Source: Kiritimatiellia bacterium
GTDB lineage: Bacteria; Verrucomicrobiota; Kiritimatiellia; PWTM01
Reading direction: 5' to 3'
NCBI GenBank assembly: GCA_026417735.1
Contig: JAOACR010000023.1
Coordinates: 62,001 to 126,000, forward strand
Length of the DNA: 64,000 nt
This document shows positions 44,508-64,000 of this stretch, one piece after another. Each line of letters starts with the position of its first letter. Positions within the stretch are counted from its first letter, which is position 1. A program made the position numbers and the translations under genes. The notes beneath the pieces were generated by a model, which saw only the letters and a list, made by a program, of their open reading frames with translations, did not search any database and was not told the origin of the DNA.

Positions 44508-46175
44508 CTACTCGAGGATCGCGCCGCGGCTGGCGTTCGTCGCATGCGCGGCGTAGCGCGCCAGCCAGCCAGTGGTGAACCGGGGCGGAGGCGGCGACCA
44601 CTCGCGACGACGCGCGGCCAGCTCTGAGTCCGAAATCCTCACAGAAAGCCGCCGCGCGGGGATGTCCAGCTCGATCAGGTCACCGTCGCGCAGCAGCGCG
44701 ATCGGCCCGCCCTCCGCCGCCTCCGGCGACACGTGGCCGACGCACGCGCCGCGGGTGCCTCCGCTGAATCGTCCATCGGTGATCAGCGCGACCTTATCGC
44801 CCAGGCCACGCCCCATCAGGTAGCTGGTGGGGGCGAGCATTTCCTGCATACCGGGTCCACCCTTCGGCCCCTCATAGCGGATGACCACCACATCGCCCGG
44901 CTTCACGCGCCCGCGGAGGATGCCCTCGCAGGCGGCCTCCTGGGAGTCGAAGATCACCGCCGGTCCACAGTGGACCAGCACCCGCGGATCCACGCCGGCG
45001 GTTTTCACCACCGCACCGTCCGGCGCAAGATTCCCCCGCAGAATGAACAGCCCGCCTTCGCGACTGTAAGCGCGCTCCAGCGGCCGGATCACCTCGGGAT
45101 CGCGGATCACGGCTGCGGCGATGGTCCGCCCCAGCGTTCGACCAGTGACGGTCCTCGCCTCCAGATGAAGCAGACCTTCGATTCGGGCGACTTCCCGCAG
45201 GATCGCCGACACGCCGCCGGCGCGGTCCACATCCTCGATGTGATAGGTGGAGGAGGGAGAGACCTTGCAGATGTTGGGCGTACGTTTCGAAAGCTCGTTG
45301 ATGCGGTCGAGGTCATAGCTGACGCCCGCCTCGTGCGCGATCGCCAGCGTATGCAGCACGGTGTTGGTGCTGCCGCCCATCGCCATGTCGAGCACAAACG
45401 CGTTGTCAATCGCGTCGCGCGTGACGATGTCGCGCGGCCGCGGCCCGCCGTTCAGCGCCAGCCGCACAGCGAGCCGGCCCGCCGCCCGCCACAGCCGTCG
45501 CCGCGCCGGATCGGTCGCCAGCACCGTCCCGTTGCCCGGCAGCGCCAGCCCGATCGCTTCCAACAGGCAGTTCATCGAGTTCGCGGTGAACATCCCTGAA
45601 CAGGAGCCGGGGCCCGGGCATGCGGAACACTCCAACTGGCGCAGCTCCTCCTCGGTGATCCGACCTGCCGCGAGCGCTCCAACACCCTCAAACACGCCGA
45701 TCAGGTCGGTGATGCGCCCGTCCGGCATTCGCCCCGCCGCCATCGGTCCACCACTGACGAAGACGGTTGGGATGTTCGCCCGCAGCGCGCCCATGATCAT
45801 GCCGGGGATGATCTTGTCGCAGTTGGGAACGCAGACCATCGCGTCAAAACAATGCGCGGCCACCATCGTCTCAACACTGTCGGCGATGAGCTCCCGGCTG
45901 GGTAGCGAGTACTTCATGCCGCCATGGCCCATCGCCAGACCGTCACAGATGCCGATGGTGTTGAACTCAAACGGCGTGCCGCCCGCACGTTCAATGGCGC
46001 GCTTGATCAGCTGGCCGACCTTGTTCAGGTGCACGTGGCCCGGAATCACGTCTGTGTACGCATTGCACACCGCGATGAACGGCCGCCGGATCGCCTCGTC
46101 ATCGAGGCCGGTCGCCCGCAGCAAGCTGCGGTGCGGTGCGCGCTCAGCCCCCTGCTTGATCGTATCGCTGCGCAT
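44508..46175 (-). CDS. ilvD: Dihydroxy-acid dehydratase
   Basis: A 555-residue Fe-S dehydratase of valine, leucine and isoleucine synthesis, converting 2,3-dihydroxy-acids to 2-oxoacids. Conserved cluster cysteines are C119 ([10 protein letters not shown]) and C192 ([15 protein letters not shown]). [19 protein letters not shown] and [10 protein letters not shown] are diagnostic. The first region reads IPGHVHL as in E. coli IlvD, not TPC as in [2Fe-2S] forms. ATG 46175 is preceded by GGGGAGTGG; the longer frame upstream has no family similarity. No other ilv or leu genes are adjacent. Confidence 0.95.
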
Positions 46176-46233
46176 GCTCCACTCCCCACGGTCGTGCGGA
46201 CGGCTGCTGCCCGCCAAACTCAAAGGAGGCTTC

Positions 46234-46261
46234 AGTCTACCCCTGCCGACCCCGCTGAGAA
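46234..46261 (-). promoter_or_regulatory. Possible promoter of ilvD
   Basis: On the minus strand: TTCTCA (-35), a 16-bp spacer and TAGACT (-10), giving a leader of about 50 nt. The -10 context GTAGACTGA is identical to that of the ATPase operon promoter. No leader-peptide attenuator is evident. Confidence 0.45.
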
Positions 46262-46300
46262 AAGGCTCTTTGTCCCGTCGCTGACACCGCACAACCGCCT

Positions 46301-46972
46301 TCACGCTGCTCCACGATGCGATGTGCGCCTCGCAATTCGCAGCACCGCGAGTCCGGCGGCGGGCAGCACCAACGCCAGCAGCACCGCCCAACGCAGGCCG
46401 AGCGGTTCGGCGCTCTGCGCCCCCGCCCAGCCGTAAACCAGACACAGGGGAAGCGTCCCGGCGGTGGACAGCCGGATGAAACGGCCCGGTGGCATGCCGG
46501 CCAGGCCCGCGGCGCAGCTGATCAGCTCTGTGAGCATCGGCACGCTGCGGCTGAGCACGATCGCCCACGCACCGTACTCGTTCACCACCCGCTCGGCGAA
46601 CTCTGCGTCCGCTCCCGCGGTGCGCCGGAACCAGGCGCGGCCGAAACGACGGCATGCGGTGTAACCGACGATGGCAGCTGCCATGGCACCGGCAAACGAA
46701 ACTGTCGCGCCGAGCAACGGACCCAGCAGCGCGCCGGCCAGCGTCATCAGCACACTGGATGGCGTGGGCAGCACTAGATCCGCCGCGAGCAACCCGGCGA
46801 TCGCGAGCGCCGCTGCGAGGCGGCCTCCGGACGAATTGCGAATTGCCTCAATCGCAGTGCGAACCCGCGCCCCGTCCATCCACCCGCCCGCAGACGCCCC
46901 CAGCGCCAGCAGCACCATCACGCTGACCGCCGCAAACAGCACAAGCAGGAGACGTTTCATCGGTTCCGCCAT
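46301..46972 (-). CDS. TVP38/TMEM64 (DedA superfamily) membrane protein
   Basis: A 223-residue inner-membrane protein with about six hydrophobic segments, starting at residues 5-22 ([20 protein letters not shown]). The SNARE-associated/DedA core contains [21 protein letters not shown] and the re-entrant segment near [19 protein letters not shown]. Relatives flip polyprenyl phosphates or phospholipids, or affect membrane potential. ATG 46972 is used; ATG 46960 is possible. It lies upstream of ilvD on the same strand and divergent from a GH78-like gene. The transported lipid is unknown. Confidence 0.82.
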
Positions 46973-47110
46973 CCCTTGTCCGCCAACGGCACCGCGAAGT
47001 TCGGCCGGGGGGACGGACTCCGGTGCGTTCCACTCTCCAGGATCGTCGGGCGCCGCGCAAACCGCCGCACCACAGGCGCCCATGGCGGCCGTCCGACATG
47101 GCCACGGTTC

Positions 47111-47138
47111 TTGTCCTCCGAAGAAACCGTCCTATCAT
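47111..47138 (+). promoter_or_regulatory. Predicted promoter of the second GH78-like gene
   Basis: TTGTCC (-35), a 16-bp spacer and TATCAT (-10) lie 68 nt before the ATG at 47207. The -10 context CCTATCATCC is shared with the argS promoter. Confidence 0.55.
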
Positions 47139-47206
47139 CCGAATGCTCGGCCGCTGTGGCGACGGTGCCGCAGACCGCAACAGACGCTGGGGGAGGCATG
47201 GCAGCG

Positions 47207-49657
47207 ATGAAGCATCGCAACGGATGGATCGTGGCGCTGGTGTTTGGCGGGTTGCGCACAGCCATGGCCGCACGGCCCGCAGAGTTCCGGCAGGCCGAGC
47301 CGGTCTGGCTGGCCGGCACCGAGCGAGAGATGAACGTGCTGGCCGGCTTCCGCGCGGTGATCGTTTCGCCTTCGGCGGACGGCGCGACGTTGCGCGCCAC
47401 GGGTTCCACCTTCTACCGGGTGACCGTGAACGGGGAGTTCGTCGGCCACGGCCCCGCCCGCGCCGGCCACGGCTGGTTCCGCGTGGACGAATGGCCGCTC
47501 GATGCCTGCCTGCGGCCCGGCACCAACGTCGTCGCGATCGAGGTGGCCGGCTACAACATCAACAGTTTTGCCTACCTCGACCAGCCGTCGTTTTTGCAGG
47601 CGGAAATCGTCGCTGGCGACCGCGTGCTGGCGGCGACGGGCGCAGAGGATGCAACGAGAACGTTCACCGCAATGCGTCTCGACGCGCGCCTGCAACGGGT
47701 GCCGCGGTACAGCTATCAGCGCGGGTTCATGGAGGTCTGGCGGTTGACGCCGGGGTGGGACCTGTGGCGAAGGGACCCCGCGGCGCCATGGTCGCCCGCA
47801 CCCCTCGCGCGCCAGCCGGGCGGACGTTCTCTGCCACGCGGGGTGCCACTGCCGGAGTGCGGCGTCGTGCGCCCCGCCCCGATCGTCATCGCCGGTACAC
47901 TTGTGCGGCGACCGGTCTCCCGGCCCTGGAAGGATCGCTCGCTCACCATCATTGGCCCGAACTTCAAGGGGTTTGCAGAACCTGAGCTCGAGACGTGCCC
48001 GCCAGTTGAATACCAGCACTACGCGGACGGCGGCTCGACCACGGTGACCCATGCTGCTGGATCGGCGCGGCTTTCCGCAATGGAGTACCGGGTGCTCGAC
48101 TTTCGCACAAACCTCACCGGGTTCATCGGCGTGCGCCTGCGATGCCAAGCGTCCTCCCGGGTGATGCTCTCGTTTGATGAGCTACTCCCGGAACGCGGAC
48201 CGGTGAACTGGCGGCGACTGTCCTGCGCAAGTCTGGTGGACCTGCGGCTGGAACCGGGCGAATACACCTTCGAGACGATCGAGCCCTACACGCTGCGCGC
48301 GTTGCAGCTGGCAGCCCTCGAGGGCGCAGAAGTGGAGCTGCTGGACGCGTGGCTGCGCGAGTTCGCTACCTCCGGCACCGAACTGGCGCGCGTTCGCGCT
48401 TCCGATCCGGCGGTCGAGCAGGTGTTCGAAGCGGGCCGTCAGACGTTTCGCCAGAACGCCGTGGACATTTTCATGGACTGTCCCTCTCGTGAGCGGGCGG
48501 GCTGGCTGTGCGATAGCTTTTTCACCGCACGCACTGCGATGGACCTGCAGGGGAACGCGCGAATCGAACGGGCGTTTCTCGAAAATTTCGCGCTGCCGGA
48601 CGCCTTCCCGCGCCTGCCGGAGGGCATGCTGCCGATGTGCTATCCCTCCGACCACTACAACGGAGAGTTCATACCCAACTGGGCGATGTGGTTCGTGCTG
48701 CAGCTTCGCGAATATCTTCAACGCACCGGAGATCGTGAGCTGGTCGAGCGATTGCGGCCACGCGTGCTGCGGCTGGTGGAGTACTTTCAGCGACTGCGCA
48801 ATGCCGACGGCCTGCTCGAAAAGCTGCCCAGCTGGGTGTTTGTGGAGTGGTCGATGGCGAACAAGTTCGTGCAGGACGTGAACTACCCCTCCAACATGCT
48901 CTATGCGGAGATGCTCGACGCGATCGCCGAGCTCTACGGGCAGCCGCAGCTCGCCCGTGAGGCCGCGGGCGTGCGGGAGGCGATTCGGCGCCAGTCGTGG
49001 GACGGAGAATTTTTTGTGGACAACGCGGTTCGCCGGCCCGACGGTACGCTCGAGGTCACACGGAACCGGACGGAAACCTGTCAGTATTATGCGTTCTACT
49101 TCCGAGTGGCGACGCCGGCGACGCACCCGCAATTGTGGGACCGTCTTGTCCGCGACTTTGGCCCGCAGCGTAAGGGAACAGGGCGGTGGCCCGAAATTCA
49201 CCCGTCAAACCAGCTCATCGGGAACGTGATGAGATTCGAGCTGCTGTCCCGCGAAGGCCTGACTCGCCGCCTGTTCGAAGAGGCCGTGCCGTATCACCGC
49301 CGCATGGCAGAGCTGACCGGTACGCTGTGGGAATTCGACGGCCCGCAGGCCAGCTGCAACCACGGGTTCGCCTCGCATGGGGGGGTGCGGCTGCTGTACC
49401 GCGACGTGCTCGGTCTTTGGAACGTGAGCCACACGCACCGTGAAGTGATCCTCCGGATACCCGACGTGCCGCTGGAGTGGTGCGAAGGGACAATGCCAAC
49501 GCCGGACGGGCCGATTGAGCTGCGATGGCACCGCGCGGGGGAGGGTGTGCGGATCGAACGGCTGGTGTTGCCAAAGGGTTGGCGTCACCGGTTGGACGAT
49601 CGCGCGGGAGGCGTCGTGCGTGTGGTGGAGGCGCCATCGCACGCTTCCGGAATCTAG
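47207..49657 (+). CDS. Secreted GH78-like alpha-L-rhamnosidase family protein (second copy)
   Basis: An 816-residue exported six-hairpin glycosidase. The signal peptide covers residues 1-21 (WIVALVFGGLRTAMA). N-terminal beta-sandwich domains (FYRVTVNGEFVGHGPAR; VVAIEVAGYNINSFAY) resemble the GH78 D/N domains. The catalytic (alpha/alpha)6 region has D424-CPSRE, with E429 at the general-acid position, followed by CDSFFTART. Identity with the other GH78-like gene appears low, so they likely act on different substrates. ATG 47207 is chosen because GGGGGAGG sits at proper spacing; ATG 47198 is too close to it. The substrate is not provable from sequence. Confidence 0.8.
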   Translation: MKHRNGWIVALVFGGLRTAMAARPAEFRQAEPVWLAGTEREMNVLAGFRAVIVSPSADGATLRATGSTFYRVTVNGEFVGHGPARAGHGWFRVDEWPLDACLRPGTNVVAIEVAGYNINSFAYLDQPSFLQAEIVAGDRVLAATGAEDATRTFTAMRLDARLQRVPRYSYQRGFMEVWRLTPGWDLWRRDPAAPWSPAPLARQPGGRSLPRGVPLPECGVVRPAPIVIAGTLVRRPVSRPWKDRSLTIIGPNFKGFAEPELETCPPVEYQHYADGGSTTVTHAAGSARLSAMEYRVLDFRTNLTGFIGVRLRCQASSRVMLSFDELLPERGPVNWRRLSCASLVDLRLEPGEYTFETIEPYTLRALQLAALEGAEVELLDAWLREFATSGTELARVRASDPAVEQVFEAGRQTFRQNAVDIFMDCPSRERAGWLCDSFFTARTAMDLQGNARIERAFLENFALPDAFPRLPEGMLPMCYPSDHYNGEFIPNWAMWFVLQLREYLQRTGDRELVERLRPRVLRLVEYFQRLRNADGLLEKLPSWVFVEWSMANKFVQDVNYPSNMLYAEMLDAIAELYGQPQLAREAAGVREAIRRQSWDGEFFVDNAVRRPDGTLEVTRNRTETCQYYAFYFRVATPATHPQLWDRLVRDFGPQRKGTGRWPEIHPSNQLIGNVMRFELLSREGLTRRLFEEAVPYHRRMAELTGTLWEFDGPQASCNHGFASHGGVRLLYRDVLGLWNVSHTHREVILRIPDVPLEWCEGTMPTPDGPIELRWHRAGEGVRIERLVLPKGWRHRLDDRAGGVVRVVEAPSHASGI

Positions 49658-50072
49658 AACGCCTGCAGGCTTCTCGTTGCGACCGCCCGTGGCCGAGTGG
49701 GCCTCCGCCACACCTCGAACCGTTCAACTTCTCCGGCAGACGGTTATGGAAAGACCACGGGCGGCCAAAGCCACACTTCTGCCGCGGCTACGAGGAGGGG
49801 CGGCTCGCGCCGGTGGCGTCGCGCGCGGCCCTTTCACTGTCCCTTTAGCACCCCTTTCTGTCCGTACGGCGTCCGTTGCGTACCGGCCGGTGTCGCCCCC
49901 GATCTTCCCAACGCCATCGCCAGGGAAATCCGGCGCGTTCCTGTCTTCCAAGCCTTGCAAACATCTGGTCTAGGGGCCTCCAAAGCTTGGGCTGTGCGCC
50001 ATTCCCCTCAGCAGGCGTTTGCCGCCACCTTCTCTGTCCCGCCCGTCGCCGCTCACCAATCTTTCTTTCGCC
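49658..50072. other. 415-bp convergent gap holding a paired palindrome
   Basis: The gap lies between two converging stops. No open frame, tRNA or T-tailed terminator is seen. Its one notable element is the palindrome pair at 49946-49991. The sequence just before the DUF1573 stop is pyrimidine-rich. Confidence 0.5.
49946..49991. repeat. Pair of TTCCAA-N3-TTGGAA palindromes, centres 32 bp apart
   Basis: The first copy TTCCAAGCCTTGCAA (49946-49960, one mismatch) is centred at 49953. The second TCCAAAGCTTGGG (49979-49991) is centred at 49985. The core CCAA-N3-TTGG is kept apart from one base, and spacing between centres is 32 bp, about three helical turns. The same pair and spacing recur at 60599-60643. 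This suggests a cooperative protein-binding element or a dispersed intergenic repeat. Confidence 0.6.
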
Positions 50073-51095
50073 TCAGCGGTCTGAGATGACGCGCAACTTG
50101 AGCTTCAGCGGCCCATCGGCGGGCGGCCGCGTGTGGATTTCAACGTCGTGGCCATCCCACTCGGGCGTGCTGGGCAGATCGTCCAGCCGCAGCTGAATCG
50201 CGCCGTCGGCCAGCCGGCGCGCCTGCCATCGAAGCGGACGGCCGGCGAGCTGGACCCGCTCGACCTCCAGCGCCGCCGCGCCACCGCCCGACAGAAGAAC
50301 GAACTGACTTCCTCGCGAGCCGGCCTCCACGCGCAGCTCGGTTGGCAGCAGCATCAGCGGCTGGCGAACCACCACGCTGCAGCCAACCACGATCTGGCCG
50401 ATGTCCGGCCGGTCGGTGCTGAGGATCAGCCGCTCCGTCAGCCAACCGGCGGAGGGATACGGCGGAACGGCGGCGACCTCGATCTGCCACACGCCGGGGC
50501 CCTCCGGCCGTACCGCCGCCCGCAGCCACTGCGCGCTCACCTCGGCGGAGATCAGTCGTCCGGTAGGCGGATCAAACGAAAGGCGCAACGACTGTGTGGC
50601 CGAGCGATCCGGCGAGAGGTCCCCGAACATCACGCCCGTCGGCGTTAGCGCCCAGGGGGAGAGGATCTCCGCGACGATGGGTATTTTCACGGAGGGGTTG
50701 CGGGGATCGTTCGTCCGCAGCACAACTTCCCGGTAGAACTTGCCACGACGCCCCAACAGGTTCAGCCGCACGATCATCTCGGTCGCCGCGCCCACGGGAA
50801 CGAGGTCATGCTCCACTCGAACCTCCGCACACCCACAGCCGGAGTCGATTCCCTCGATCCGGAGCGGTTCATCGCCGGCGTTGCGAATCCGCAGCCGTCG
50901 GACCAGCTCGGGGTCCTGCGCGCGGACGCGACCGAAGTCGAGCGCAGGGGGGTTCACCTGCACGGCGGGGACGGCGCGCGCGGCGGCCGGCAGCACGGCC
51001 GGAATCAGGACCAGCGCGAGCCAGCGGCCCCCCCAGCTCTTCCATCTGCGCGCGCCCCGGCCCCCGACGGGCCACTCCAACGTCTGCCGCCGCAT
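50073..51095 (-). CDS. Exported DUF1573-domain protein
   Basis: A 340-residue protein with a basic N-terminus, then a signal segment at about residues 23-40 (LALVLIPAVLPAAARAV). A DUF1573 Ig-like domain at about 45-140 carries ALDFGRVRAQDPELVRRLRI (read in parts), the hallmark SGCGCAEV and VVLRTNDPRNPSVKIP. The C-terminal half holds further beta-sandwich repeats of the same kind. DUF1573 proteins are abundant in PVC and Bacteroidota envelopes, but their function is not established. It follows glgX by 133 nt on the same strand. Confidence 0.85.
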   Translation of the reverse strand: MRRQTLEWPVGGRGARRWKSWGGRWLALVLIPAVLPAAARAVPAVQVNPPALDFGRVRAQDPELVRRLRIRNAGDEPLRIEGIDSGCGCAEVRVEHDLVPVGAATEMIVRLNLLGRRGKFYREVVLRTNDPRNPSVKIPIVAEILSPWALTPTGVMFGDLSPDRSATQSLRLSFDPPTGRLISAEVSAQWLRAAVRPEGPGVWQIEVAAVPPYPSAGWLTERLILSTDRPDIGQIVVGCSVVVRQPLMLLPTELRVEAGSRGSQFVLLSGGGAAALEVERVQLAGRPLRWQARRLADGAIQLRLDDLPSTPEWDGHDVEIHTRPPADGPLKLKLRVISDR

Positions 51096-51228
51096 CGCAC
51101 ATGCTCCCTGTCATTCCGAGGTTCGGGCACCCCATCCCGCCGACGATCGCCGCGGCCCCCGGAGCGACTCGTCGGCGAGCTCGTCCGCCACAGCATGGAG
51201 CAAGTGGCCGCCGTCCCGCGATCCGCGA

Positions 51229-53283
51229 TCACGAGGCTTCCATCACCGCGAGCGCCGGCCCCTCGAGCCGGAGCCGCTGCGTGCCATCTGCCGAAAGCAC
51301 CCGTGGGGGCTCGGCCTCCGTCGTCCAGAGGGCCGGCCGCCACGCGCCGGGCGGAAGGCGGAACTCGACCGGCTGGCCGCCACCGTTGATCAGCACGAGC
51401 AGATCCGGCTCGGGCGTCGGCGCGCCCGTGCAGCGCGGGTCGCCACTGAGGCGATACATCAGCGCGATGCCTCTCGCCCAGTCCGGCGCGCCACCATCCG
51501 GCCCGAACCACTCCACGTCCGGCGGCGAGCCGTCCGTGCCCGTTCCCGTGAGAAACCGCGAACGCCGGAGGCTGCGGTGGCGTCGGCGCAGCGCGATCAG
51601 ATCGCGGACCCACTGCAGAAATGCGGCGTTGCGCTCGGCCAGCGTCCAGTCGAACCAGGAGATCTCATTGTCCTGCGCGTACGCGTTGTTGTTGCCGCGC
51701 TGCGTGCGCCCGAACTCGTCACCGCCCAGCAGCAGCGGCACGCCCTGCGCAAGCAACAGCGAGGCGAGAAGATTCTTTTGCTGGCGGGTTCGGAGCGACT
51801 CGATTCGCGGATCGTCGCTCGGCCCTTCCACACCGCAGTTGAAGGAGTGGTTGTGCGGCTCTCCGTCACGTCCGCCCTCGGCGTTCGCCTCGTTATGGGG
51901 GCGGGCGTAGCGCACCACGTCGGCGAGCGTGAACCCGTCGTGGCAGGTGACGTAGTTCACGCTCGTCAGCGGTCCGCGCGGTCGGCCGCTGTAGAGGTCG
52001 GAGCTGCCGGCCAGTCGGGTCGCCAACACGCCCAGAAGACCGCGATCACCCCGCCAGAAACGGCGGACGTCATCGCGGAAGCGACCATTCCACTCCAGCC
52101 AGTCGCGACCCGGAAACGCGCCGACTTGGTAGAGCCCGCCGACGTCCCACGGCTCCGCGACGAGCTTCACGTCGCGGAGGTCCGGCTCAGCGGCGATGCG
52201 AGCCAGCAGCGGCGGGGCGTCCAGTGGGCGGCCATCGGGGCCCCGCGTCAGCGCGGCGGCCAGATCGAAGCGAAATCCGTCCACGTGGAACTCGCGCACC
52301 CAGCGGCGGAGGCAATCCACAATGATGTCGGCGACCACCGGCTCGTTCGCGTTGACGGTGTTTCCGCAACCGGTGAAGTCGGCGAACTCCTCGGTACCGG
52401 GTTTGCGCAGGTAATAGAGCTCGCGGTCCAGCGCCTTGAACGAATACATCGGGCCACCGGCGCCGTCCTCGCCGGTGTGGTTGAAGACGACGTCGAGCCA
52501 CACCTCGAGGCCGGCGGCGTGGAGCGCGCGGACCAGGTCGCGGAACTCGTCGACCGACGCTGCCGGTCGGGGGTTGGCCGCATAGCGGGAGTTCGGTGCG
52601 AACCAGGCAATCGGGTTGTAGCCCCACAGGTTGCGGAGGTGGCGACGCGGACCGTGTTCGATCCACAACTCCATCTCGTCGAACTCGTGCAGCGGAAGCA
52701 GTTCCACCGCGGTGATGCCGAGACGAGCGAGGTACGGGATGCGTTCCGCGAACGCGGCGTAGGTGCCCGGCGCAGCGACGCCCGCAGAGGGATGAGCGGT
52801 GAAGGAGCGAAGATGAACCTCGTAGATGATCGTGTCGGTCAGCGGGGTGCGGGGCGGGCGGTCACCGCGCCAGTCGTAGCGCGAGTCGTCCACGACCACA
52901 CACTTGGGGAACGCGGCACCTCGCTCGGGCCAGTGGCCCGGCGTGAGGCCACGTGTCTCGCCCCAGCGCCGCGAGGTCGCGACCGCGGAAGCACACGGGT
53001 CGAGCACCCATCGGCGCGCGTCCCAGTCCGATGCCTCGATGCGCCAAGCATACAGCGCCCCGTGGCCGACGCCGGGCAGGCGCAGTTGCCACAGGTCGCC
53101 CTGCCGGTGCGTGGTGGGCAACAGCGCAAACTCGCCGGCGGGCTCCGCCGCGTCGGGTGAGTCGAACAACATGAGCCAGGCGCGCCGAGCGCGCGCACAG
53201 CGGAGCACAAAGGTGGTGGCGCCATCGTCTACCGTCGCTCCGCAGCGGCGACCCTCCCACGGCATTCGTTCGCGGTCGCGCAT
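51229..53283 (-). CDS. glgX: Glycogen debranching enzyme GlgX (GH13 isoamylase type)
   Basis: A 684-residue alpha-1,6-glucosidase acting on phosphorylase-limit glycogen. An N-terminal CBM48 domain spans about residues 10-110. The GH13 barrel follows, with nucleophile D340 (GFRFDLAAAL), acid/base E377 (VAEPWDVGG) and D449 (TCHDGFT). GDEFGRTQRGNNNAYAQDNEIS (read in parts) is the GlgX/TreX block. The C-terminal beta domain is complete. ATG 53283 begins 41 nt after the smc stop on the same strand, so smc and glgX may be co-transcribed. It implies glycogen storage, although glgA, glgB and glgP are not in this window. Confidence 0.94.
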   Translation of the reverse strand: MRDRERMPWEGRRCGATVDDGATTFVLRCARARRAWLMLFDSPDAAEPAGEFALLPTTHRQGDLWQLRLPGVGHGALYAWRIEASDWDARRWVLDPCASAVATSRRWGETRGLTPGHWPERGAAFPKCVVVDDSRYDWRGDRPPRTPLTDTIIYEVHLRSFTAHPSAGVAAPGTYAAFAERIPYLARLGITAVELLPLHEFDEMELWIEHGPRRHLRNLWGYNPIAWFAPNSRYAANPRPAASVDEFRDLVRALHAAGLEVWLDVVFNHTGEDGAGGPMYSFKALDRELYYLRKPGTEEFADFTGCGNTVNANEPVVADIIVDCLRRWVREFHVDGFRFDLAAALTRGPDGRPLDAPPLLARIAAEPDLRDVKLVAEPWDVGGLYQVGAFPGRDWLEWNGRFRDDVRRFWRGDRGLLGVLATRLAGSSDLYSGRPRGPLTSVNYVTCHDGFTLADVVRYARPHNEANAEGGRDGEPHNHSFNCGVEGPSDDPRIESLRTRQQKNLLASLLLAQGVPLLLGGDEFGRTQRGNNNAYAQDNEISWFDWTLAERNAAFLQWVRDLIALRRRHRSLRRSRFLTGTGTDGSPPDVEWFGPDGGAPDWARGIALMYRLSGDPRCTGAPTPEPDLLVLINGGGQPVEFRLPPGAWRPALWTTEAEPPRVLSADGTQRLRLEGPALAVMEAS

Positions 53284-53324
53284 GAGCGGTCAGCGCCGGC
53301 GGATCGCGCGCATCGCGACGCCGC

Positions 53325-56300
53325 TCACGCGGGCGTCGCCGCCGGCCGCGTCACGGAATCCGCGTCCGTCAGCGGACGGTCCCCGTCCCGAAACTTAACC
53401 GACACCACTTTCGAGACGCCCCGTTCCTGCATCGTGATGCCGTAGAGCACATCCGCGGCGGCGATCGTCTGCCGGTTGTGCGTGATCACAATGAACTGCG
53501 ACTGCGGCGTGAACTCCCGCACGATCGCGAGAAACCGCCCGATGTTGGACTCGTCGAGCGGCGCGTCGAGCTCGTCCAGCACGCAGAAGGGGCTCGGTTT
53601 GATCGCGTAGAGCGCAAAGAGCAGCGCCACCGCGGTCAGCGCCCGCTCGCCACCGGAAAGCAGCGAGACGGACTGATGCTTCTTGCCCGGCGGCCGCGCG
53701 ATGATTTCGATGCCGGACTCGAGCACGTCCGTTTCGTCCACCAGCACCAGTTTTGCGGTGCCGCCGCCAAACAGCCGCGCGAACATCTCATCGAATTTTT
53801 CGTTCACCCGCGCGAACGTTTCACGAAACATTTCGGTGGAGGTCTGATTGATGCGACGAATCAAATCCATCAGCTGTTGACGCGAGCGCACCAGGTCCTC
53901 CTGCTGCGCCGACTGGAACTGATAGCGGCGTTCGAGCTCCTCGCACTCCTCGATCGCCACGAGGTTCACCGGCCCCATCGAGTCGAGCCGGGCGCGGAGC
54001 TCGGCGACGTGCGCCTCGATCGCGTCCAGATCGTCGGGCGAGGGCGCACCGTCGGCGGGGGCCGGCGCCGACGCCGCCGCGACCTCCTCCGGCGTGGCAT
54101 GGTGATCGGCCGTCGCGCGTTCGAGCACTGCCTGGCGGCGCAGACGCAGCTCTGCGATCTGCACCTCCGCTGTGGAGCACTCGCGACGCACCGCGTCCAG
54201 GTCGTCGCGACGCAGCCGAAGCTCCTGCTCGAGAGTCTGCAGCGCGGCTGCTTCCCGGTCGCGCTCGGCCCGCAGCTCGCTGGCGCGCGCGAGGTGAACG
54301 GCCTCTTCCGCCTCCAGCGGGTTCAGCGCATCGCGCGCGGCCGCTGCCGCGCGAACCGACTCCTCAAGGCGCTGGCGATAGAGATGCAGATCCTCGGTCC
54401 GCTGGCGGATCAGCGCGCCGATCTCGCTGGCGCGCAGTTCGATCGCCTCACGGCGCTGTGCGGCGGCTTCGCATTCTCGCCGGCGGTCCGCCGCCGCAAT
54501 CCTCGCGTCGGTCTCCGCGCGGGAGAGCTCCGCGCGGCGTTGCTCCATCGACCGGAGGTCCTCCCCCAGCTCGGCCACGCGCCGGCGGACCTCCGTCTGG
54601 CGTTCACGAAGCTCCTCGAGCGTTCGGAGCAGCCGCTCGCGTTCCGCGGCAGCCACGCCGTCCTCGCCGGAGGCCGCCTCCAGCTCCATCGCGACGGTGT
54701 CCGCGCGGCGGCGGCTCTCCTGCTCTTGACGCGCGAGAATCGCACCCTCCCCCTCCGTCATTGCGAGCGCGACACGAGCGACGTCGAGCTGGCGCCGTGC
54801 CTCCGCGGTCTCGACCTCCAGCGCCCGGAGCGCCCCCTGCACCGATTCGATCTCCGCCGCCAGCCCTCGGGCGGCGGCCTCCGCCGCGGCGTGATCGCGC
54901 TCGATCTCCTCGATGCGGCGCCGCAGCGCAATCGGGTTCGACGGTGCGCCTTCTCCGATCCACTCGTATCGGCCCAGGCCGGCGGCGATCCGCCCGCCAC
55001 GGGTCACCCACATCACACCGGGAGGCGGCTCCGCGGCCTCCGGAAACTCGTCCACCAGATACACCCCGCGCAACAACCGTTCCGCGAGCGCCCGCGCCTC
55101 CTCCGCGCAGCGGACTCGGGCGGCGAGCGGCACGCCCCCGCTCGGGGTCGGCAGCGCCACAGGCACCTCATCGGAAAACAGCGCGACCAGGCGCGCGCTC
55201 GCCGCGCTCCGCTGCTCGAGCCCGCGCAGCAGTTCCCTGGCGGCGGCCGGCGAGCGGACAATCACGGCGTCCGCCCATGCGCGCAGCGCGGCCTCGAGCG
55301 CGAGTCGGTCCTCCGGTGCCGCATCGAACATCTGCGCGAGCGGTCCAATCAACTCGCCGGCGGCGACGGGGATCTGGCCGTCGAGGATCGCGCGGGCGCC
55401 CTCCGCGAACGTCTCGCGGTGCGCCTGCTGGCGGCGAAGCACATCGAGCCGCGCCGCGAGCTCCGCGGCGCGCAGACGGGCGGCGTCCGTCTCGCGGTGC
55501 AGCGCGGTGGCGCGGTCCTCCAGCTCGCGCCGGCGCTCGGCGAGCTGCGCGAAGCGCGCTTCCGCCGCGCGGACCTCGGCGCGCTGCGCGTCCGCGCGGG
55601 CGGTCCAATCCGCGCGCAGGCGCTCCGCGGCAGTGAGCGCCTGCCGCAGCTGCGCGTGTTCGACGCGCAACCGCTCACGGCGCAGCGCGATACCCTTTTC
55701 TCGCGCGTCGAGGTCGGCGAGCTGGTTGGATGCCTGGGCGAGGCGGTGGTCGAGATCGAGCAGCTCCGCGCGCAGCGCGTGGAGCTGCTGCGAGCTCGCC
55801 TCGAGCTGCGCCTCGGCCTCGCGCAGACGGGCGGTGCGTTCGGCGAGGTCACGTTCCGCGGCGTCGCGACGGCGCTCGAGTTCCGCGTGCGAGGCGGCGG
55901 CCTCCGCGCGCGCGTTCGCGAGCTCGACCGCACGGGCACGCGCCTCGTCGAGCTCGCGCTGGTGGGTGTCCATCAGCCGGCGGTATTCATCGCAGCGCTG
56001 CTCGTGGTGCGCGAGCGCATCCGCGGTGCGGTGGCGTTCCGCGCGCGCCTGCGCGGCCAGCTCGCGCGCCGCGTCGATCGCGCGGTCGGTTTCCTCGAGT
56101 CGCGCGCGACCCTCCTCCAGCCGTCGCTCCGCGTCGGCGAGCGCGGCGGCGATCGCGCCCTGCCGCTCGAGCAGCGCGGCGCGGCGGGTCTCGGCGTCGC
56201 GCAGATCGCGCTCGAGCGTCTCAAGTCGGCGTCGCGCCAGGAAGAGGTCCCATGCGCGCAGCTCCTGCCGCAGCGCCTGATAGCGGCGGGCCTTTCCGGC

Positions 56301-56924
56301 CTGACGCTGCAACGAAATGATGCGGCTGCGCACCTCGCGGAGGATGTCGCCGAGCCGCTGCAGATTCATCTCTGTCTGTTCGAGCTTGCGCAGCGCATCG
56401 CGCCGGTCGGCCTTGAACCGGCTGATGCCGCTGGCTTCCTCGAACACCTCCCGACGGTCCTCGGGACGAGAGCTGAGAATCAGGTCAATGCGGCCCTGCT
56501 CCATCAGCGAGTAGGAGTTGGTGCCGATGCCGGTGTCCATGAAGAGGCGCTGGATGTCCTTCAGCCGGCAGGGCGTGCGGTTCAGCAGGTACTCGCCCTC
56601 GCCGGAGCGGTACACGCGGCGCGTGATCGTCACCTCGTGGTACTCGGTGCCGAGCACCGGCTCGCACCCGCACAGCGTCAGGCTCACCTCCGCCATGCCC
56701 ATCGGCTTGCGCGCCTCGGTGCCGGCAAAGATGAAGTCGGTCATGCCGGCGCCACGCAGCGCCTTTGCGCTCTGTTCGCCGAGCACCCACCGGATCGCGT
56801 CGGAAATGTTGCTCTTGCCACAGCCGTTCGGTCCGACGATCGCGGTGATGCCGGGCTCAAATTCCAGCGTGGTGCGATCGGCGAAGCTTTTGAAGCCCGC
56901 CAGTTCCAGCCGTTTCAGGTACAA
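53325..56924 (-). CDS. smc: Chromosome segregation protein SMC, TTG start
   Basis: A 1199-residue condensin ATPase for chromosome compaction. Walker A GPNGCGKSN is at residues 31-39, and the ABC signature LSGGERALTAVALLFA with Walker B FCVLDELDAPLDESN is at the C-terminus. Two long coiled coils flank a hinge at about 500-690, rich in Ala, Glu and Arg. The start is TTG at 56924 (MYLKRLELAGFKSFAD): GGAGAG lies about 7 nt upstream, and no ATG or GTG exists in frame until 57029, which would add a non-homologous tail overlapping the promoter. ScpA/ScpB partners are not in the window. The antisense frame is long only because of codon bias. Confidence 0.96.
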   Translation of the reverse strand: MYLKRLELAGFKSFADRTTLEFEPGITAIVGPNGCGKSNISDAIRWVLGEQSAKALRGAGMTDFIFAGTEARKPMGMAEVSLTLCGCEPVLGTEYHEVTITRRVYRSGEGEYLLNRTPCRLKDIQRLFMDTGIGTNSYSLMEQGRIDLILSSRPEDRREVFEEASGISRFKADRRDALRKLEQTEMNLQRLGDILREVRSRIISLQRQAGKARRYQALRQELRAWDLFLARRRLETLERDLRDAETRRAALLERQGAIAAALADAERRLEEGRARLEETDRAIDAARELAAQARAERHRTADALAHHEQRCDEYRRLMDTHQRELDEARARAVELANARAEAAASHAELERRRDAAERDLAERTARLREAEAQLEASSQQLHALRAELLDLDHRLAQASNQLADLDAREKGIALRRERLRVEHAQLRQALTAAERLRADWTARADAQRAEVRAAEARFAQLAERRRELEDRATALHRETDAARLRAAELAARLDVLRRQQAHRETFAEGARAILDGQIPVAAGELIGPLAQMFDAAPEDRLALEAALRAWADAVIVRSPAAARELLRGLEQRSAASARLVALFSDEVPVALPTPSGGVPLAARVRCAEEARALAERLLRGVYLVDEFPEAAEPPPGVMWVTRGGRIAAGLGRYEWIGEGAPSNPIALRRRIEEIERDHAAAEAAARGLAAEIESVQGALRALEVETAEARRQLDVARVALAMTEGEGAILARQEQESRRRADTVAMELEAASGEDGVAAAERERLLRTLEELRERQTEVRRRVAELGEDLRSMEQRRAELSRAETDARIAAADRRRECEAAAQRREAIELRASEIGALIRQRTEDLHLYRQRLEESVRAAAAARDALNPLEAEEAVHLARASELRAERDREAAALQTLEQELRLRRDDLDAVRRECSTAEVQIAELRLRRQAVLERATADHHATPEEVAAASAPAPADGAPSPDDLDAIEAHVAELRARLDSMGPVNLVAIEECEELERRYQFQSAQQEDLVRSRQQLMDLIRRINQTSTEMFRETFARVNEKFDEMFARLFGGGTAKLVLVDETDVLESGIEIIARPPGKKHQSVSLLSGGERALTAVALLFALYAIKPSPFCVLDELDAPLDESNIGRFLAIVREFTPQSQFIVITHNRQTIAAADVLYGITMQERGVSKVVSVKFRDGDRPLTDADSVTRPAATPA

Positions 56925-56957
56925 GGATCGCTCTCCATCCGGATGGCGGCGACCGCG

Positions 56958-56986
56958 TTGCGGCGCGCCAGAGCGTTCGCTACAGT
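56958..56986 (+). promoter_or_regulatory. Predicted promoter of the GT2 gene
   Basis: TTGCGG (-35), a 17-bp spacer and TACAGT (-10), 81 nt before the ATG at 57068. It lies 14 bp from the divergent smc promoter. Confidence 0.5.
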
Positions 56987-56999
56987 CCGCACGCGCGCC

Positions 57000-57029
57000 A
57001 CGATACCACGCGGCGCACGGCGCGTGCAA
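57000..57029 (-). promoter_or_regulatory. Predicted promoter of smc
   Basis: On the minus strand: TTGCAC (-35), an 18-bp spacer and TATCGT (-10), giving a leader of about 70 nt. It lies back to back with the GT2 promoter, so RNA polymerase binding at the two may compete. Confidence 0.5.
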
Positions 57030-57067
57030 ACGGCCGGCCGCCGCGGCGGCACGCGCCGGTGCAGAAC

Positions 57068-57838: not shown

Positions 57839-57855
57839 GCCGCCGCGCCGGGGGC

Positions 57856-57884
57856 GTGAATCTCGCCGATGGATCGTGTAGGCT
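57856..57884 (+). promoter_or_regulatory. Possible promoter of the EboF/EboD-like pair
   Basis: GTGAAT (-35, weak), a 17-bp spacer and TAGGCT (-10), 33 nt before the ATG at 57918. Confidence 0.35.
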
Positions 57885-57917
57885 CCGACCGGGCAGGTCG
57901 CGGCGCAGAACGCTCGT

Positions 57918-59231: not shown

Positions 59232-59271
59232 GTGCGTCCAATCTCTTACCGCAAGCGGAAGATGAACTGCC

Positions 59272-60510
59272 GTGAGAACCGGTGGTGATCGCAACCCAAC
59301 GGCTGCCCCGCGGGGCCGCCGAGCCGAGAGGGAGCGACGGCTGAACCAGCGAATCGTGGTCCGCTTCGACTACCCCGTCTGGTTCACCCGCGGCGTTTTC
59401 CGCCCGGGCCACCACCGGCTCCTCGAGGCGATCACGCACAGGGAACCCGATCGCCGTCACCGCGTGGCGGTGTTTGTGGACTCCGGCGTCGCCGCGGCCT
59501 GGCCCGCGCTGACGCAACAGATCAGCGCCTGGGCCGAGCGGCACTCGGCGGCGGTGCGGCTTGTCGCACCCCCCCGCGTCGTTCCCGGCGGCGAGACGAT
59601 CAAGTGCGACCTTGGCATGATCCAGGACCTGCTGCATTTGATCGCGCGCAGCGGCCTGTGTCGCCACTCGTTCGTGATCGCAGTGGGCGGTGGAGCAGTG
59701 CTTGACGCGGTCGGCTTCTGCGCATCGCTGGTGCACCGGGGTCTGCGCATGATCCGGCTACCCACCACCGTGCTGGCACAGAACGACGCGGGCGTCGGCG
59801 TGAAAACCGGCATCAACACCGATGGCGGCAAGAACACCGCCGGCACGTTCGCGCCACCGTACGCGGTCATCAACGATCTCGATTTCTTGCGTACGCTGCC
59901 CGACGAGCACTGGATCGGCGGCACCGCCGAAGCGTTCAAGGTCGCGATCCTGAAAGACCGGGCGTTCTTCGAGTATCTGGAGGCGAACGCGGCGGCGATT
60001 CCGCGCCGCGACGAAACGGTGATGGAGCGACTGATCGTCCGCTGCGCAGAGCTTCATCTGGAGCACATTCGCACCGGCGAAGATCCCTTTGAGACCGGCG
60101 CGGCGCGTCCACTCGATTTCGGCCACTGGGCGGCGCACCAGCTGGAGACGCTGAGCGGATACCGCGTCAGTCACGGTCAGGCGGTGGCCACTGGGATCGC
60201 GCTCGACACGCTGTACGCGGCACGGCAGGGATGGATCGCTGCCGCCGATGCAGACCGCGTAGTCGCCGCGCTGCAGCGCGCGGGTTTTCCGCTTTGGCAC
60301 GCGGAACTATCCCAACGGCGCGCGGACGGCCGTCTTGCGCTGCTCGACGGCCTGGAGACGTTCCGCGAGCATGTGGGGGGCAATCTGTGCTTGACGTTCC
60401 CCAACGGCCTCGGCGCGCGCCGAGAAACCGGGAACGTCGACCCCGCACGGATCGCCGACTGCCTCGAGGAACTCCGGCGCCGCACCACCGCCGCCCCGCG
60501 GCCCGTGTGA
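59272..60510 (+). CDS. 3-dehydroquinate-synthase-family protein (EboD-like)
   Basis: A 412-residue sugar-phosphate cyclase-fold enzyme. The NAD-binding block VGGGAVLDAVG (residues 138-148), LPTTVLAQNDAGVGVKTGIN with K178, and Zn ligands E220 (GTAEAFKVA), H285 (DFGHWAAHQLE) and H301 (SHGQAVATG) are all present, so it should be catalytically competent. It diverges from ordinary AroB in VKTGINTDGGKNTAGTFAPP and resembles the EboD type. The start is GTG 59272, 40 nt after the EboF-like stop. An aroB role in the shikimate pathway is the main alternative; the neighbour argues against it. Confidence 0.75.
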   Translation: MRTGGDRNPTAAPRGRRAERERRLNQRIVVRFDYPVWFTRGVFRPGHHRLLEAITHREPDRRHRVAVFVDSGVAAAWPALTQQISAWAERHSAAVRLVAPPRVVPGGETIKCDLGMIQDLLHLIARSGLCRHSFVIAVGGGAVLDAVGFCASLVHRGLRMIRLPTTVLAQNDAGVGVKTGINTDGGKNTAGTFAPPYAVINDLDFLRTLPDEHWIGGTAEAFKVAILKDRAFFEYLEANAAAIPRRDETVMERLIVRCAELHLEHIRTGEDPFETGAARPLDFGHWAAHQLETLSGYRVSHGQAVATGIALDTLYAARQGWIAAADADRVVAALQRAGFPLWHAELSQRRADGRLALLDGLETFREHVGGNLCLTFPNGLGARRETGNVDPARIADCLEELRRRTTAAPRPV

Positions 60511-60598
60511 GCGGGGGCGGCCGAACGGCTCTTCCCGAGCGGCACATCGTCGGAGAGGGACCGGGTCGCGGGTCGGCCCCCCGCGCGAGACGTTGAGG

Positions 60599-60643
60599 TT
60601 CAAGCCTTGGAAGCCCGGTCGGCCAAGTCGTCCAAGGCTTGGA
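60599..60643. repeat. Pair of TTCCAA-N3-TTGGAA palindromes, centres 32 bp apart
   Basis: The first copy TTCAAGCCTTGGAA (60599-60612) has core CAA-GCC-TTGG centred at 60605. The second TCCAAGGCTTGGA (60631-60643) is a perfect 6+1+6 palindrome centred at 60637. Centre spacing is 32 bp, equal to the pair at 49946-49991. It lies between two converging stops. It ends 14 nt before the stop of the next gene, so it cannot be that gene's promoter. Confidence 0.62.
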
Positions 60644-60657
60644 GAGGAACGGTGTGA

Positions 60658-63600
60658 TCAGGGAGAAAGCTCGACGTGCCGTTCGGCGGTGCGGTTGGAG
60701 GCCAGCTCGCGGACCCGGACTGTCCAGCGGCCCGGCGTATCGTTCGGCGCCGTCTCCAGCTGCAGATCGAGTACCCCGTCGCGCGCACCGTACCAGCCGG
60801 TTCCTTCCGCTTCGCGCCCCTCCGCATCGAGCACGTCTACGCGCAGCGGCACAACTGCCGCCAGCGGCTGACCATCTGCATCCACCACCCGCACGCGGAA
60901 GGGGGCGCGTTCGCCGCGGCGGACGATCGCCGGACCCTCGAGCGTGACCGCGGCGATCGGCCGATCGGTGACCATCACGATTCTGCCCCCGGCGGCCTCC
61001 AGGTTCACCGAAAAACGCAGCTCACCGTCGGTGCGTGTCAGCGGCACTTCCGCGTGGGCGAGCAGGTCGTACGCGCGGCCGTCGTTTCGGCGGAGGCGAA
61101 CCTCGGCGGAGTCGGGCCGGCCATTTTCCATCACAAGACCATGACGACCGACATAGTCGCCGAACGCGCGGCGGTCGTTGACCAGGAAGATGTAGTCCGT
61201 CGTGCGGTGTCGGCGCAGACGCGGGATCACCGTAGGGGAGGTGGTGAAGAGGCGGCGCCGGTAGCGGTCGCCGAGCTCGCGGAGCAGGTGTTCGCCAAGG
61301 CGGATCAGCGCGGCCTGGTCCGTGTCGGCGCGGCCGCTACGTTCGAGGATAGGCAGCCGGATATCCGGCGTGATGCCCGGCGCAAGGCGCTCATCGCCCA
61401 CCACGATGCCACCGCGGCGCTGAAAGGCGACGATGCGGGCGGCGACGCCCGTGGTCAGCACGTCGCAATCTGGCAGCAGCAGCAGCCGGTAGCGGTCCAG
61501 GCCATCGCGGAGCACGGTTTCATCGTAGAGGATGTCCGCCTCGATGTGGGCCCACGTCATCGCGTGCCAGAGATCGGCGGCCCAGCCGCGTCCCCATCCG
61601 TACGTGCCGCGGCCCGCGTACCACATCTGCGCGGCAAAGCTTTCCAGCAGCGCGGCATCCCGCGGCGCGTCGCCAATCTCGAGCAGCGCAGGACCGAGCG
61701 GCTCAACGACCCCGCGGAGCAGCTCTCGCAGCGCGGTCTGGGTGCCCGGATGAGTGTGCCGGTAGGCCCCCCGCTCCTCGGTCGGCACGATCGCCTGCCA
61801 GCCGTGGTACATGATGCCGGCGACCGGCCGCGCGATCTTGCACCAGAACGCAATGCGGAGATGGTCAGGGGAGATGGTGAGGAACTTCGCGTCGGGATCG
61901 GTGTCTTCCCACGGCGAGAGCGCCGCCGCGCGCGCAAGGTCAGCGGTGTTCGCGGGCGCCGTCTGCGAGCGGTACCAGAACGCCTGCGTCATTTTCATCA
62001 CGCGCGTCGGACGCGGTGCGCCGGCGGCCATCGCCAGGAGCTCGTCGGCGGCCAGGCCGATGCGGATCGGATCGGGGTTGGAGTAGGTCCAGTGCGAGAG
62101 CACGTCCACGTCGCCGCCGCTCCCCCACACGCTCGCGACTCGGACGGCGGGATCGTGGAACGTCCAGAAGCCCGCTCGCACGCCGCCCTCGCGCAGGCCG
62201 CGCGCGACCGCGGTGTTCAGCGCGTTCCAGCCATCGCCGTGCTTCCACCACCAGCGGAGAAAGGCGAGCGTCGGCTCCTCGTCCGGAACCAGGCGCAGGG
62301 GCGGAAAGCCCGGCACCTGATCCCATCGGCGGCCGCTTTTCGTGTGGTTGGTCGGAACCGTGAGAAAACCGGCCTGGCGCGCGGCCTCCCGATCGTGCGG
62401 GTGATAACAGATCGTCGCGGCGTCGCGCACCTCGCTGTGCAGCAGCGCCCCCTCGAAGGCGGGGCAGTCGCCCCACGCGCGCGCGACGGCCCGGCCGACG
62501 CGCCGGCAATAGTCGGCCATGCCGGGGGCGGCGGCACAGACATTGGGCCGATTGGTGAGCGGTCGGCCGGCGGGATCCACGCGCACACGTGACGGATCGT
62601 CCTTCCATACCGAGCCGGGCGAGAGCGACGCGATCAGGCGGAAGTCGTCCGCGAGCGCGACATCGAGCATGTGTCGCGTCAGCGCAACGCGCGCGGGCGC
62701 GACGGGCGGAGCATCGTCAGGGGCCGCCCAGAGCGCCTTTGCATCCAACGGGATGCCAAGACAGTGTGTAAAGCCGAGGTCCCGAAGGCGGGGCAGCTCC
62801 TTCAACACGTTCTCCGGCGAGTAGATCCCCCACATCACCACCGGCATCCGCGGCGGCCGGCGTGGAACGATCCGTACGACGAGATTCGTCTCCGCGAGTG
62901 TCGGTGCCGAATCGGCCAACCGCGCGCGCGCCGTTATCGGGTATGCGTCCGGCCGCCAGTTGGTGGGAACCGGGACCGGCACCGTCCGAACGCCGCCGGG
63001 TTCCAGCGCGGCCACGTCCACCGACACGTTTGAATCAAACGCACGCACCTCCACGCGAATCGAACGCACCACGACGAGCCCCCAGTTCGTCAGCGCCAGG
63101 CGCACCATTGCGTTGCTTTCCCCGCGCACGAAGACCCGGCGCTCGCCCGGCAGCGTCCCCAGGCCAAGACCGGTGATCTCGGGCAGCCCGTGAGCCAGCC
63201 GGACCTGCGCAATTCGTCCGGGAAAAGCGTAGTAGTCACTTCCGAGCCGGTCACCGATCGCCAGAGGGCGGTCGTTAGGGGCAACTCCGCCGCGCTCCGG
63301 ATATGTTTGGCGACCTGCCGGCGAACCGTCTACAAAGAACCAGCCGGTACCGCGCCCATCGTACGCAAACAGGATCTGCCGCCACCGGCCCGCCGCCAGT
63401 TCCACCGGTTCGGAAGTCCAAGACTGTGTCTCCCTACCGAACCCCAGCCGTGCGATCAGCCGTCGAGCACCGGTTCGCTCCGGCGCGGAGATCACCAACT
63501 GGTAACCCGTGTGCGTCGCGTACTTTTTATCCAGCAAAAACACTTCGCCGACGTTCGTCACGCCAGGGGCGGGAGAGATCCACGCCGCGATAGCGAATGG

Positions 63601-63915
63601 GCCCGGCGGCGAGAGCACGGGATCCGCCGGAGCCAATGCACCTCCCGGAGTGGAGCGATCCGGCGGACCACGGCGGGGCACGAGACAGCAGCCCAGCTGC
63701 TCGTCGTTGACGATCTCCCCCCCTCGCAGGGAAAGCCGTAGGCCGTGCGGTCCCTCGTCTGCGAGCGGATCCTCCGCCCGCACCAGCCAACCGGCGACCG
63801 GCGACGCACCCGTGAGGTCGATCGGTGCCGTCGCCAAGACCGGGACAGCCCTAGTGGTGCACGCGAGCCAGAGCATCGCAGCATGCACAACAAAGGGGTA
63901 CCGGTCGCGGTTCAT
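60658..63915 (-). CDS. Large secreted glycosidase-like protein (LamG, GH42-like barrel, amidotransferase-like domain)
   Basis: A 1085-residue exported protein. The signal peptide is residues about 1-23 (FVVHAAMLWLACTTRAV). A LamG-like domain at about 100-240 (FAIAAWISPAPG; WRQILFAYDGRGTGWFFVDG) is followed by a beta-sandwich and a TIM-barrel-like region at about 360-720 (VVMWGIYSPENVLKELPRL). A possible catalytic Glu lies in LLHSEVRDAATICY. Residues about 750-880 (DRYRLLLLPDCDVLTTGVAA, then FQRRGGIVVGDE) resemble the GH42 trimerisation/amidotransferase-like domain, and Ig-like domains end the chain. ATG 63915 follows GGTGGGAG. The family is not certain. Confidence 0.65.
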   Translation of the reverse strand: MNRDRYPFVVHAAMLWLACTTRAVPVLATAPIDLTGASPVAGWLVRAEDPLADEGPHGLRLSLRGGEIVNDEQLGCCLVPRRGPPDRSTPGGALAPADPVLSPPGPFAIAAWISPAPGVTNVGEVFLLDKKYATHTGYQLVISAPERTGARRLIARLGFGRETQSWTSEPVELAAGRWRQILFAYDGRGTGWFFVDGSPAGRQTYPERGGVAPNDRPLAIGDRLGSDYYAFPGRIAQVRLAHGLPEITGLGLGTLPGERRVFVRGESNAMVRLALTNWGLVVVRSIRVEVRAFDSNVSVDVAALEPGGVRTVPVPVPTNWRPDAYPITARARLADSAPTLAETNLVVRIVPRRPPRMPVVMWGIYSPENVLKELPRLRDLGFTHCLGIPLDAKALWAAPDDAPPVAPARVALTRHMLDVALADDFRLIASLSPGSVWKDDPSRVRVDPAGRPLTNRPNVCAAAPGMADYCRRVGRAVARAWGDCPAFEGALLHSEVRDAATICYHPHDREAARQAGFLTVPTNHTKSGRRWDQVPGFPPLRLVPDEEPTLAFLRWWWKHGDGWNALNTAVARGLREGGVRAGFWTFHDPAVRVASVWGSGGDVDVLSHWTYSNPDPIRIGLAADELLAMAAGAPRPTRVMKMTQAFWYRSQTAPANTADLARAAALSPWEDTDPDAKFLTISPDHLRIAFWCKIARPVAGIMYHGWQAIVPTEERGAYRHTHPGTQTALRELLRGVVEPLGPALLEIGDAPRDAALLESFAAQMWYAGRGTYGWGRGWAADLWHAMTWAHIEADILYDETVLRDGLDRYRLLLLPDCDVLTTGVAARIVAFQRRGGIVVGDERLAPGITPDIRLPILERSGRADTDQAALIRLGEHLLRELGDRYRRRLFTTSPTVIPRLRRHRTTDYIFLVNDRRAFGDYVGRHGLVMENGRPDSAEVRLRRNDGRAYDLLAHAEVPLTRTDGELRFSVNLEAAGGRIVMVTDRPIAAVTLEGPAIVRRGERAPFRVRVVDADGQPLAAVVPLRVDVLDAEGREAEGTGWYGARDGVLDLQLETAPNDTPGRWTVRVRELASNRTAERHVELSP

Positions 63916-63930
63916 CGTCGATCTCCCACC

Positions 63931-64000
63931 TCAGCGCAGCTGTTCCTCGTGCAGCAGGTCGGCCAGCGGACGACGAGGGGGGGAGACCGGCTCCTCCGCT
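63931..64000 (-). CDS. C-terminal end of a gene extending past the right edge
   Basis: On the minus strand a frame open to the window edge ends with PRRPLADLLHEEQLR and a TGA at 63931, 15 nt before the next ATG. The short spacing suggests a gene upstream in the same operon. Only 22 codons are visible, so no function can be assigned. Confidence 0.4.
   Translation of the reverse strand, partial: AEEPVSPPRRPLADLLHEEQLR

Follow-up and report, generated by a model that had tools for sequence, protein, structure and literature searches.

The stretch of DNA analysed here (the window) comprises 64,000 nucleotides, positions 62001-126000 of contig C23 in a draft assembly of 3.09 Mb in 24 contigs. Genes were predicted with a home-made codon-model caller written for the present analysis. 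Two pairs of short palindromes, A and B, were located in the window together with the following features.

47207..49657, + strand: gene flanking pair A, encoding an alpha-L-rhamnosidase-like glycoside hydrolase (PF17389)
49658..50072, no strand: convergent intergenic gap with pair A, from the gene calls of the present analysis
49947..49959, no strand: pair A, palindrome 1, TCCAAGCCTTGCA, one mismatch to TCCAA-NSN-TTGGA
49960..49978, no strand: pair A spacer, 19 bp, of fixed length and free sequence; orthologous spacers diverge
49979..49991, no strand: pair A, palindrome 2, TCCAAAGCTTGGG, with an exact CCAA-N3-TTGG core
50073..51095, - strand: gene flanking pair A, encoding a DUF1573 protein
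59356..60510, + strand: gene flanking pair B, encoding a protein of the 3-dehydroquinate synthase family (PF01761)
60511..60657, no strand: convergent intergenic gap with pair B, from the gene calls of the present analysis
60599..60611, no strand: pair B, palindrome 1, TTCAAGCCTTGGA, one mismatch
60631..60643, no strand: pair B, palindrome 2, TCCAAGGCTTGGA, exact
60658..63915, - strand: gene flanking pair B, encoding a large secreted-looking protein with an MG2 match below the cut-off only

Pair A spans 49948-49990 with centres at 49953 and 49985, and pair B spans 60600-60642 with centres at 60605 and 60637. The 32-bp spacing given for pair A in the preliminary description, and its recurrence at the second pair, are thus confirmed, and the gene calls place both pairs between converging genes, as had been stated. 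Pair A had been described as two CCAA-N3-TTGG palindromes; in both pairs an exact match is limited to one member, the exact cores being CCAAAGCTTGG (49980-49990) in pair A and CCAAGGCTTGG (60632-60642) in pair B; the other member carries one mismatch (CCAAGCCTTGC at 49948 and TCAAGCCTTGG at 60600, respectively). The longer form TTCCAA-N3-TTGGAA was an overstatement, since none of the four palindromes matches it exactly. The first palindrome of pair A is taken as bona fide because its partner sits at exactly 32 bp.

By itself the window would be weak evidence. It contains two exact copies of CCAA-N3-TTGG against 0.38 expected, a number reached by 4 of 100 shuffles, and the word is thus just mildly unusual there. 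No Rfam match was found within 45000-64000.

Spacing and placement of the pairs in the genome

At genome scale, unlike in the window alone, the pairing and its exact spacing are decisive. The whole genome contains 125 exact words (CCAANNNTTGG) versus 29 for the reversed control, and 32 pairs of exact words spaced by 32 bp; when as many as two mismatches are allowed, 79 pairs have this spacing, versus 0 for the reversed-pattern control. Spacing and context statistics were obtained from a 1.6-Mb sample of the genome that includes the window. In this sample a partner with at most two mismatches lies at 32 bp from 54 of the 66 exact words, and no two exact words are paired at any other spacing up to 130 bp. 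The 12 unpaired exact words are at chance level (composition controls: GGTT-N3-AACC 14, CAAC-N3-GTTG 15), and therefore the pair is the unit in this genome. Nine other spacings yielded no pairs with 0-1 total mismatch, compared with 34 at 32 bp, which identifies pairs A and B, with one mismatch each, as genuine members. The scan for motif excess and non-random spacing, which the preliminary description had set as a refutation test, therefore strongly upheld its idea. The part of its interpretation that is supported is an element scattered through the genome and particular to the lineage, laid out as a site for a dimeric or tetrameric DNA-binding protein on one helix face would be; the nucleoid or looping function suggested there is plausible.

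The consensus is TCCAA-NSN-TTGGA, and in most other lineages TTCCAA-NSN-TTGGAA. At the centre of N3, C or G is found in 62 of 66 cases in the window's genome, and in 127 of 129 and 298 of 305 elsewhere. Each palindrome has AT-rich flanks, whereas the middle of the spacer is rich in GC, a pattern expected of bent DNA. At 120 loci from other Kiritimatiellia-type records the spacings were 32 (175 cases), 31 (19) and 33 bp (7), followed by 63-64 and 94-95 bp, and arrays of three or more sites have a step of 31.4-32.1 bp. Among two-mismatch partners 9 are asymmetric, 2 symmetric and complementary, and 2 symmetric and non-complementary. The sequence is thus fixed beyond mere base pairing, with uncompensated mismatches, which argues that DNA rather than RNA is read. 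The hairpin of the bare 15-mer is weak (-3.3 kcal/mol) and TTTT occurs within 20 nt at 1 of 68 edges. An RNA hairpin was rejected on the uncompensated mismatches, the weak hairpins and the absence of T tracts; the features look like a double-stranded DNA site for symmetric dimers on one helical face.

The position of the pairs relative to genes was assessed for 46 candidates with up to three mismatches in the 1.6 Mb. Intergenic DNA, about 10% of the sequence, holds 34 of them, 10 in convergent, 9 in divergent and 15 in tandem gaps. These shares are close to those of the intergenic bases (38.5, 37.4 and 86.8 kb, respectively), and therefore the convergent setting of pairs A and B is no rule; the association with convergent gaps suggested earlier is not general, the more so as coding sequence holds the other 12 candidates, two exact ones being conserved there in a sister species. 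Within tandem and convergent gaps the median distance after the stop codon is 20-27 bp in the window's genome and in the CAIVKH records of a motif-dense relative. In the latter the median is 20 bp, 69% of sites lie within 30 bp after a stop versus 42% expected, and divergent gaps also carry sites.

The intergenic enrichment and the closeness of tandem and convergent sites to stop codons are what a bidirectional terminator, roadblock or insulator at gene ends would produce. This reading is improbable, as divergent gaps, which have no gene ends, hold pairs at similar density and conserved pairs lie within genes; proximity to stops may merely reflect promoter avoidance. The T tract and strong hairpin of an intrinsic terminator are likewise absent. 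A search for a GC-rich hairpin with a T tract identified no intrinsic terminator, and there was no terminator-like match at pair A.

No function common to the flanking genes was seen by inspection. This observation, together with the convergent and intragenic sites, makes it very unlikely that the pairs are operators of a regulon, either enhancer pairs of NtrC type or sites of an autoregulated LacI-family factor, even though three-turn spacing is known for some regulators and a LacI-family gene (C9:138679-139698) is preceded by one pair at a distance of 289 bp. No sigma-54 promoter-like match was found in the window.

Along the chromosome, none of 33 inter-pair intervals in the window's genome is shorter than 10 kb (7.9 expected, P ~1e-4), and the same is true of 23 intervals in the sister species G001 (5.9 expected, P ~6e-4, with contig sizes of G001 approximated). 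Intervals below 10 kb are common in FR_21 (G299), and therefore mutual avoidance of pairs is not class-wide. Such regular spacing of about 80 sites recalls nucleoid-occlusion or macrodomain sites of the Noc, SlmA or MatP type, which would show a chromosomal gradient or a terminus-free zone. The 154-kb stretch C3:108285-262574 contains no good pair and spans a GC-skew switch near 140 kb, as this reading would have it, but it also holds parB (at 200775), so that it may represent either origin or terminus, and on the second contig of FR_21 the largest listed gap is not located at a skew switch. Exclusion from the terminus is thus suggestive in the window's genome and is not seen in FR_21, and we consider sites of this type a poor prospect. 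A Noc-type ParB paralogue was also sought and rejected: with few exceptions there is one HTH_ParB match per genome, the same with or without the motif.

Distribution and conservation within the class

The exact 32-bp pair was found in 26 of 289 genomes surveyed in the phylum, all 26 belonging to the class of the window's genome, while the control gave 0 throughout. Among the matches listed, pair-bearing loci are titled Kiritimatiellae or Kiritimatiellia, Verrucomicrobia, Lentisphaerae or uncultured; from the titles of these records we infer that the class to which the word is confined is Kiritimatiellia. The single 15-mer peaks at 1,339 copies in one genome (G013) versus 0-1 for the control, and its counts differ sharply even within genera: 1177, 1132, 640, 334, 4 and 3 in genus g35, and 110 and 1 in genus g28. 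The format also depends on the family, with pairs in that of the window (f1), arrays in f15 and single sites in f23. In the open-access papers searched, neither the motif strings nor such a repeat of Kiritimatiellia was found.

Two f15 genomes, G022 and G035, have arrays with a 31/32-bp step at many contig ends, and those of G022 have similar spacers, as if they had been duplicated and were breaking the assembly. The exact TCCAA-N3-TTGGA pair at 32 bp is also present in two IMG/VR viral contigs (L249:90-134 and L250:7670-7714), inside an ORF of 2,549 codons in L250 and just before a very long ORF in L249; these may be phages of Kiritimatiellia.

Selection was evaluated by comparison with G001, which belongs to the same genus and whose first 15 exact pairs were sought in the window's genome. 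About 8-9 of them were assessable, and 5 occupy shared positions, three non-coding and two intragenic. At the three non-coding ones the half-sites match at 59 of 60 positions, an agreement that stems partly from the choice of cases, as shared pairs were picked by the presence of a pair in both genomes. The N3 matches at 7 of 18 positions and the spacer at 25 of 57, together 32 of 75, and the difference between half-sites and other positions is highly significant (Fisher P ~1e-13), while the 32-bp spacing is unchanged. It is very improbable that an unrelated pair would occupy an identical position, and how far neutral sites have drifted can be read from the spacer. At the sequence level the comparison thus shows that selection holds the half-site word at shared positions. 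The conserved half-sites and spacing, set against scrambled N3 and spacer bases, indicate that DNA is recognised by its sequence, on one face of the helix. In G001 the counterpart of the gap with pair B contains no pair; conversely, a pair of G001 lies in the counterpart of window positions 57839-57917, a gap without a pair in the window's genome. Given this incomplete sharing and the absence of pair B, single sites are dispensable.

These data also bear on mobile palindromes of the REP/BIME type spread by a RAYT transposase. The dispersed extragenic palindromes, the similar spacers of the G022 arrays and a gene for a Y1-transposase-like (RAYT-type) protein about 370 bp from a three-site array (L047, in G036) would suit such an origin, but the spacers are unrelated between loci and diverged at orthologous sites, conserved genes contain sites, and no Y1_Tnp (PF01797) was found in the window's genome, G001-G003, G005, G022 or G035, whereas many Y1_Tnp matches occur in motif-free genomes. 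The absence of Y1_Tnp from the genomes named largely refutes the REP/RAYT candidate, which is extremely unlikely. G036 itself has at least 67 Y1_Tnp matches, far above its relatives. Direct tests went against the readings as terminator, REP element, regulon operator and Noc site, the last of these by the ParB count.

The strongest rival to a binding site is a word resembling the uptake sequences USS and DUS, in which fragments with the word would be taken up and recombined in preference to others, and molecular drive would let the word accumulate with no local function. It would explain the thousand-fold excess, the extreme patchiness within genera (1132 versus 3 in g35, 110 versus 1 in g28) and the intragenic copies (20 of 30 sampled sites in G238, a genome with single sites); over-representation in both coding and non-coding DNA, typical of such words, is found here. 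The avoidance of close neighbours in the window's genome and G001 has also been reported for USS (PMC1939737), and the window's genome encodes a ComEC-type Competence-domain protein, a ComF-like protein, a secretin and a T2SSE ATPase. However, USS and DUS are not palindromic (PMC1939737), whereas TCCAA-NSN-TTGGA is exactly palindromic and has a fixed two-site geometry, and a density of one pair per ~39 kb is too low for ordinary fragments to be taken up efficiently. An uptake-like word is therefore considered rather unlikely, though it is the main alternative.

A predicted chromosomal binding site

With moderate confidence, based on the sequence comparisons above, the pair is predicted to be the site of a dimeric, DNA-bending protein acting chromosome-wide. 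The element would consist of TCCAA-NSN-TTGGA, 19 bp and a second TCCAA-NSN-TTGGA, with centres 32 bp, or about three helical turns, apart. Two dimers of a sequence-specific protein would dock on one helix face, with cooperative binding, and would probably bend or wrap the DNA; the working unit would be the pair in the window's family and 31/32-bp arrays or single sites in other families of Kiritimatiellia. The scatter of sites regardless of operon function makes a chromosome-organising (nucleoid) factor the most likely role, rather than a local regulator or one-gene switch. It is tentatively proposed that the motif belongs to a chromosome-organising system, in which a putative dimeric protein reads obligate three-turn pairs placed about every 30-40 kb in the genus, in genes and gaps alike, and which may more than once have been acquired, enlarged beyond 1,000 sites, changed in format or lost in the class. 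Copy numbers that begin near 80 and exceed 1,000 per genome are odd for one conserved nucleoid role.

No candidate binder tracking the motif emerged from the proteins compared: full-length Lrp/AsnC and ParB proteins number about one per genome, whether the motif is abundant or missing, and a shortlist of HTH proteins, compiled by a rough pattern from the genome sample, offered no clear candidate. As an extra PF01037 copy, a stand-alone RAM-domain protein without HTH was observed in several pair- or array-bearing genomes (G001, G087, G095 and G178 among others) and not in motif-free ones; the window's genome has its own copy at L071:14107-14380, - strand (C9, ~454.2 kb), with an in-frame TAG.

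Address words such as uptake sequences, HIP1, matS and SlmA sites have each led to a cellular system. The present motif is restricted to one little-studied class, the geometry of its two sites is unusually rigid, and its copy number differs between sister species, from 0 to above 1,000. This class specificity, geometry and copy variation, together with selection, put the reader protein within reach of comparative genomics or pull-down, and the motif makes it testable why some genomes fill with one short word.

Comparison with known systems

Noc, SlmA and MatP act at tens of dispersed palindromic sites, which are single and not in fixed pairs; that of MatP, matS, is a 5+3+5 palindrome. The present word shares the 5+3+5 form of matS and differs from all three systems in its fixed pairs, with no ParB paralogue. 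REP/BIME elements are repeated extragenic palindromes, likewise occurring in pairs; unlike them, the motif has no RAYT and no copied flanks, includes intragenic members and has half-sites selected at orthologous positions.

HIP1 and the alternate HIPs of cyanobacteria are, similarly, highly iterated palindromes that are patchy between related species, but they are continuous, 8 bp long and linked to a methyltransferase (PMC4390886), whereas the present motif is gapped, 13-15 bp long and paired at a fixed 32 bp. With USS and DUS it has in common an abundant short word in and between genes, even spacing and restriction to a family (PMC1939737, PMC7811141), and AT-rich flanks are shared with USS (PMC1939737, PMC7811141); those words lack both the palindrome and the paired unit.

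The closest described architecture is that of the Lrp family. Ss-LrpB of Sulfolobus recognises a 15-bp palindromic word, TTGCAAAATTTGCAA, its dimers occupying regular sites on one face with centres two or three turns apart and wrapping the DNA; many sites lie off promoters, some of them within genes, and 37 ChIP peaks were recorded (PMC4046817, PMC2995911). Membership in this family is not claimed, because the occurrence of the class-wide Lrp does not follow that of the motif: a full-length Lrp/AsnC protein (PF01037) with HTH is present in nearly all 52 genomes regardless of the motif. Around the lrp genes in L296-L305, up to a distance of about 1.5 kb, no exact site was found. The present motif does have the palindromes of dimer size, two or three turns apart, that characterise Lrp arrays (PMC2995911). 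In contrast to the 37 ChIP peaks of Ss-LrpB, 80 to more than 1,300 words are counted here, but like the Ss-LrpB arrays these are 15-bp palindromes in regular three-turn phase, at non-promoter and intragenic sites.
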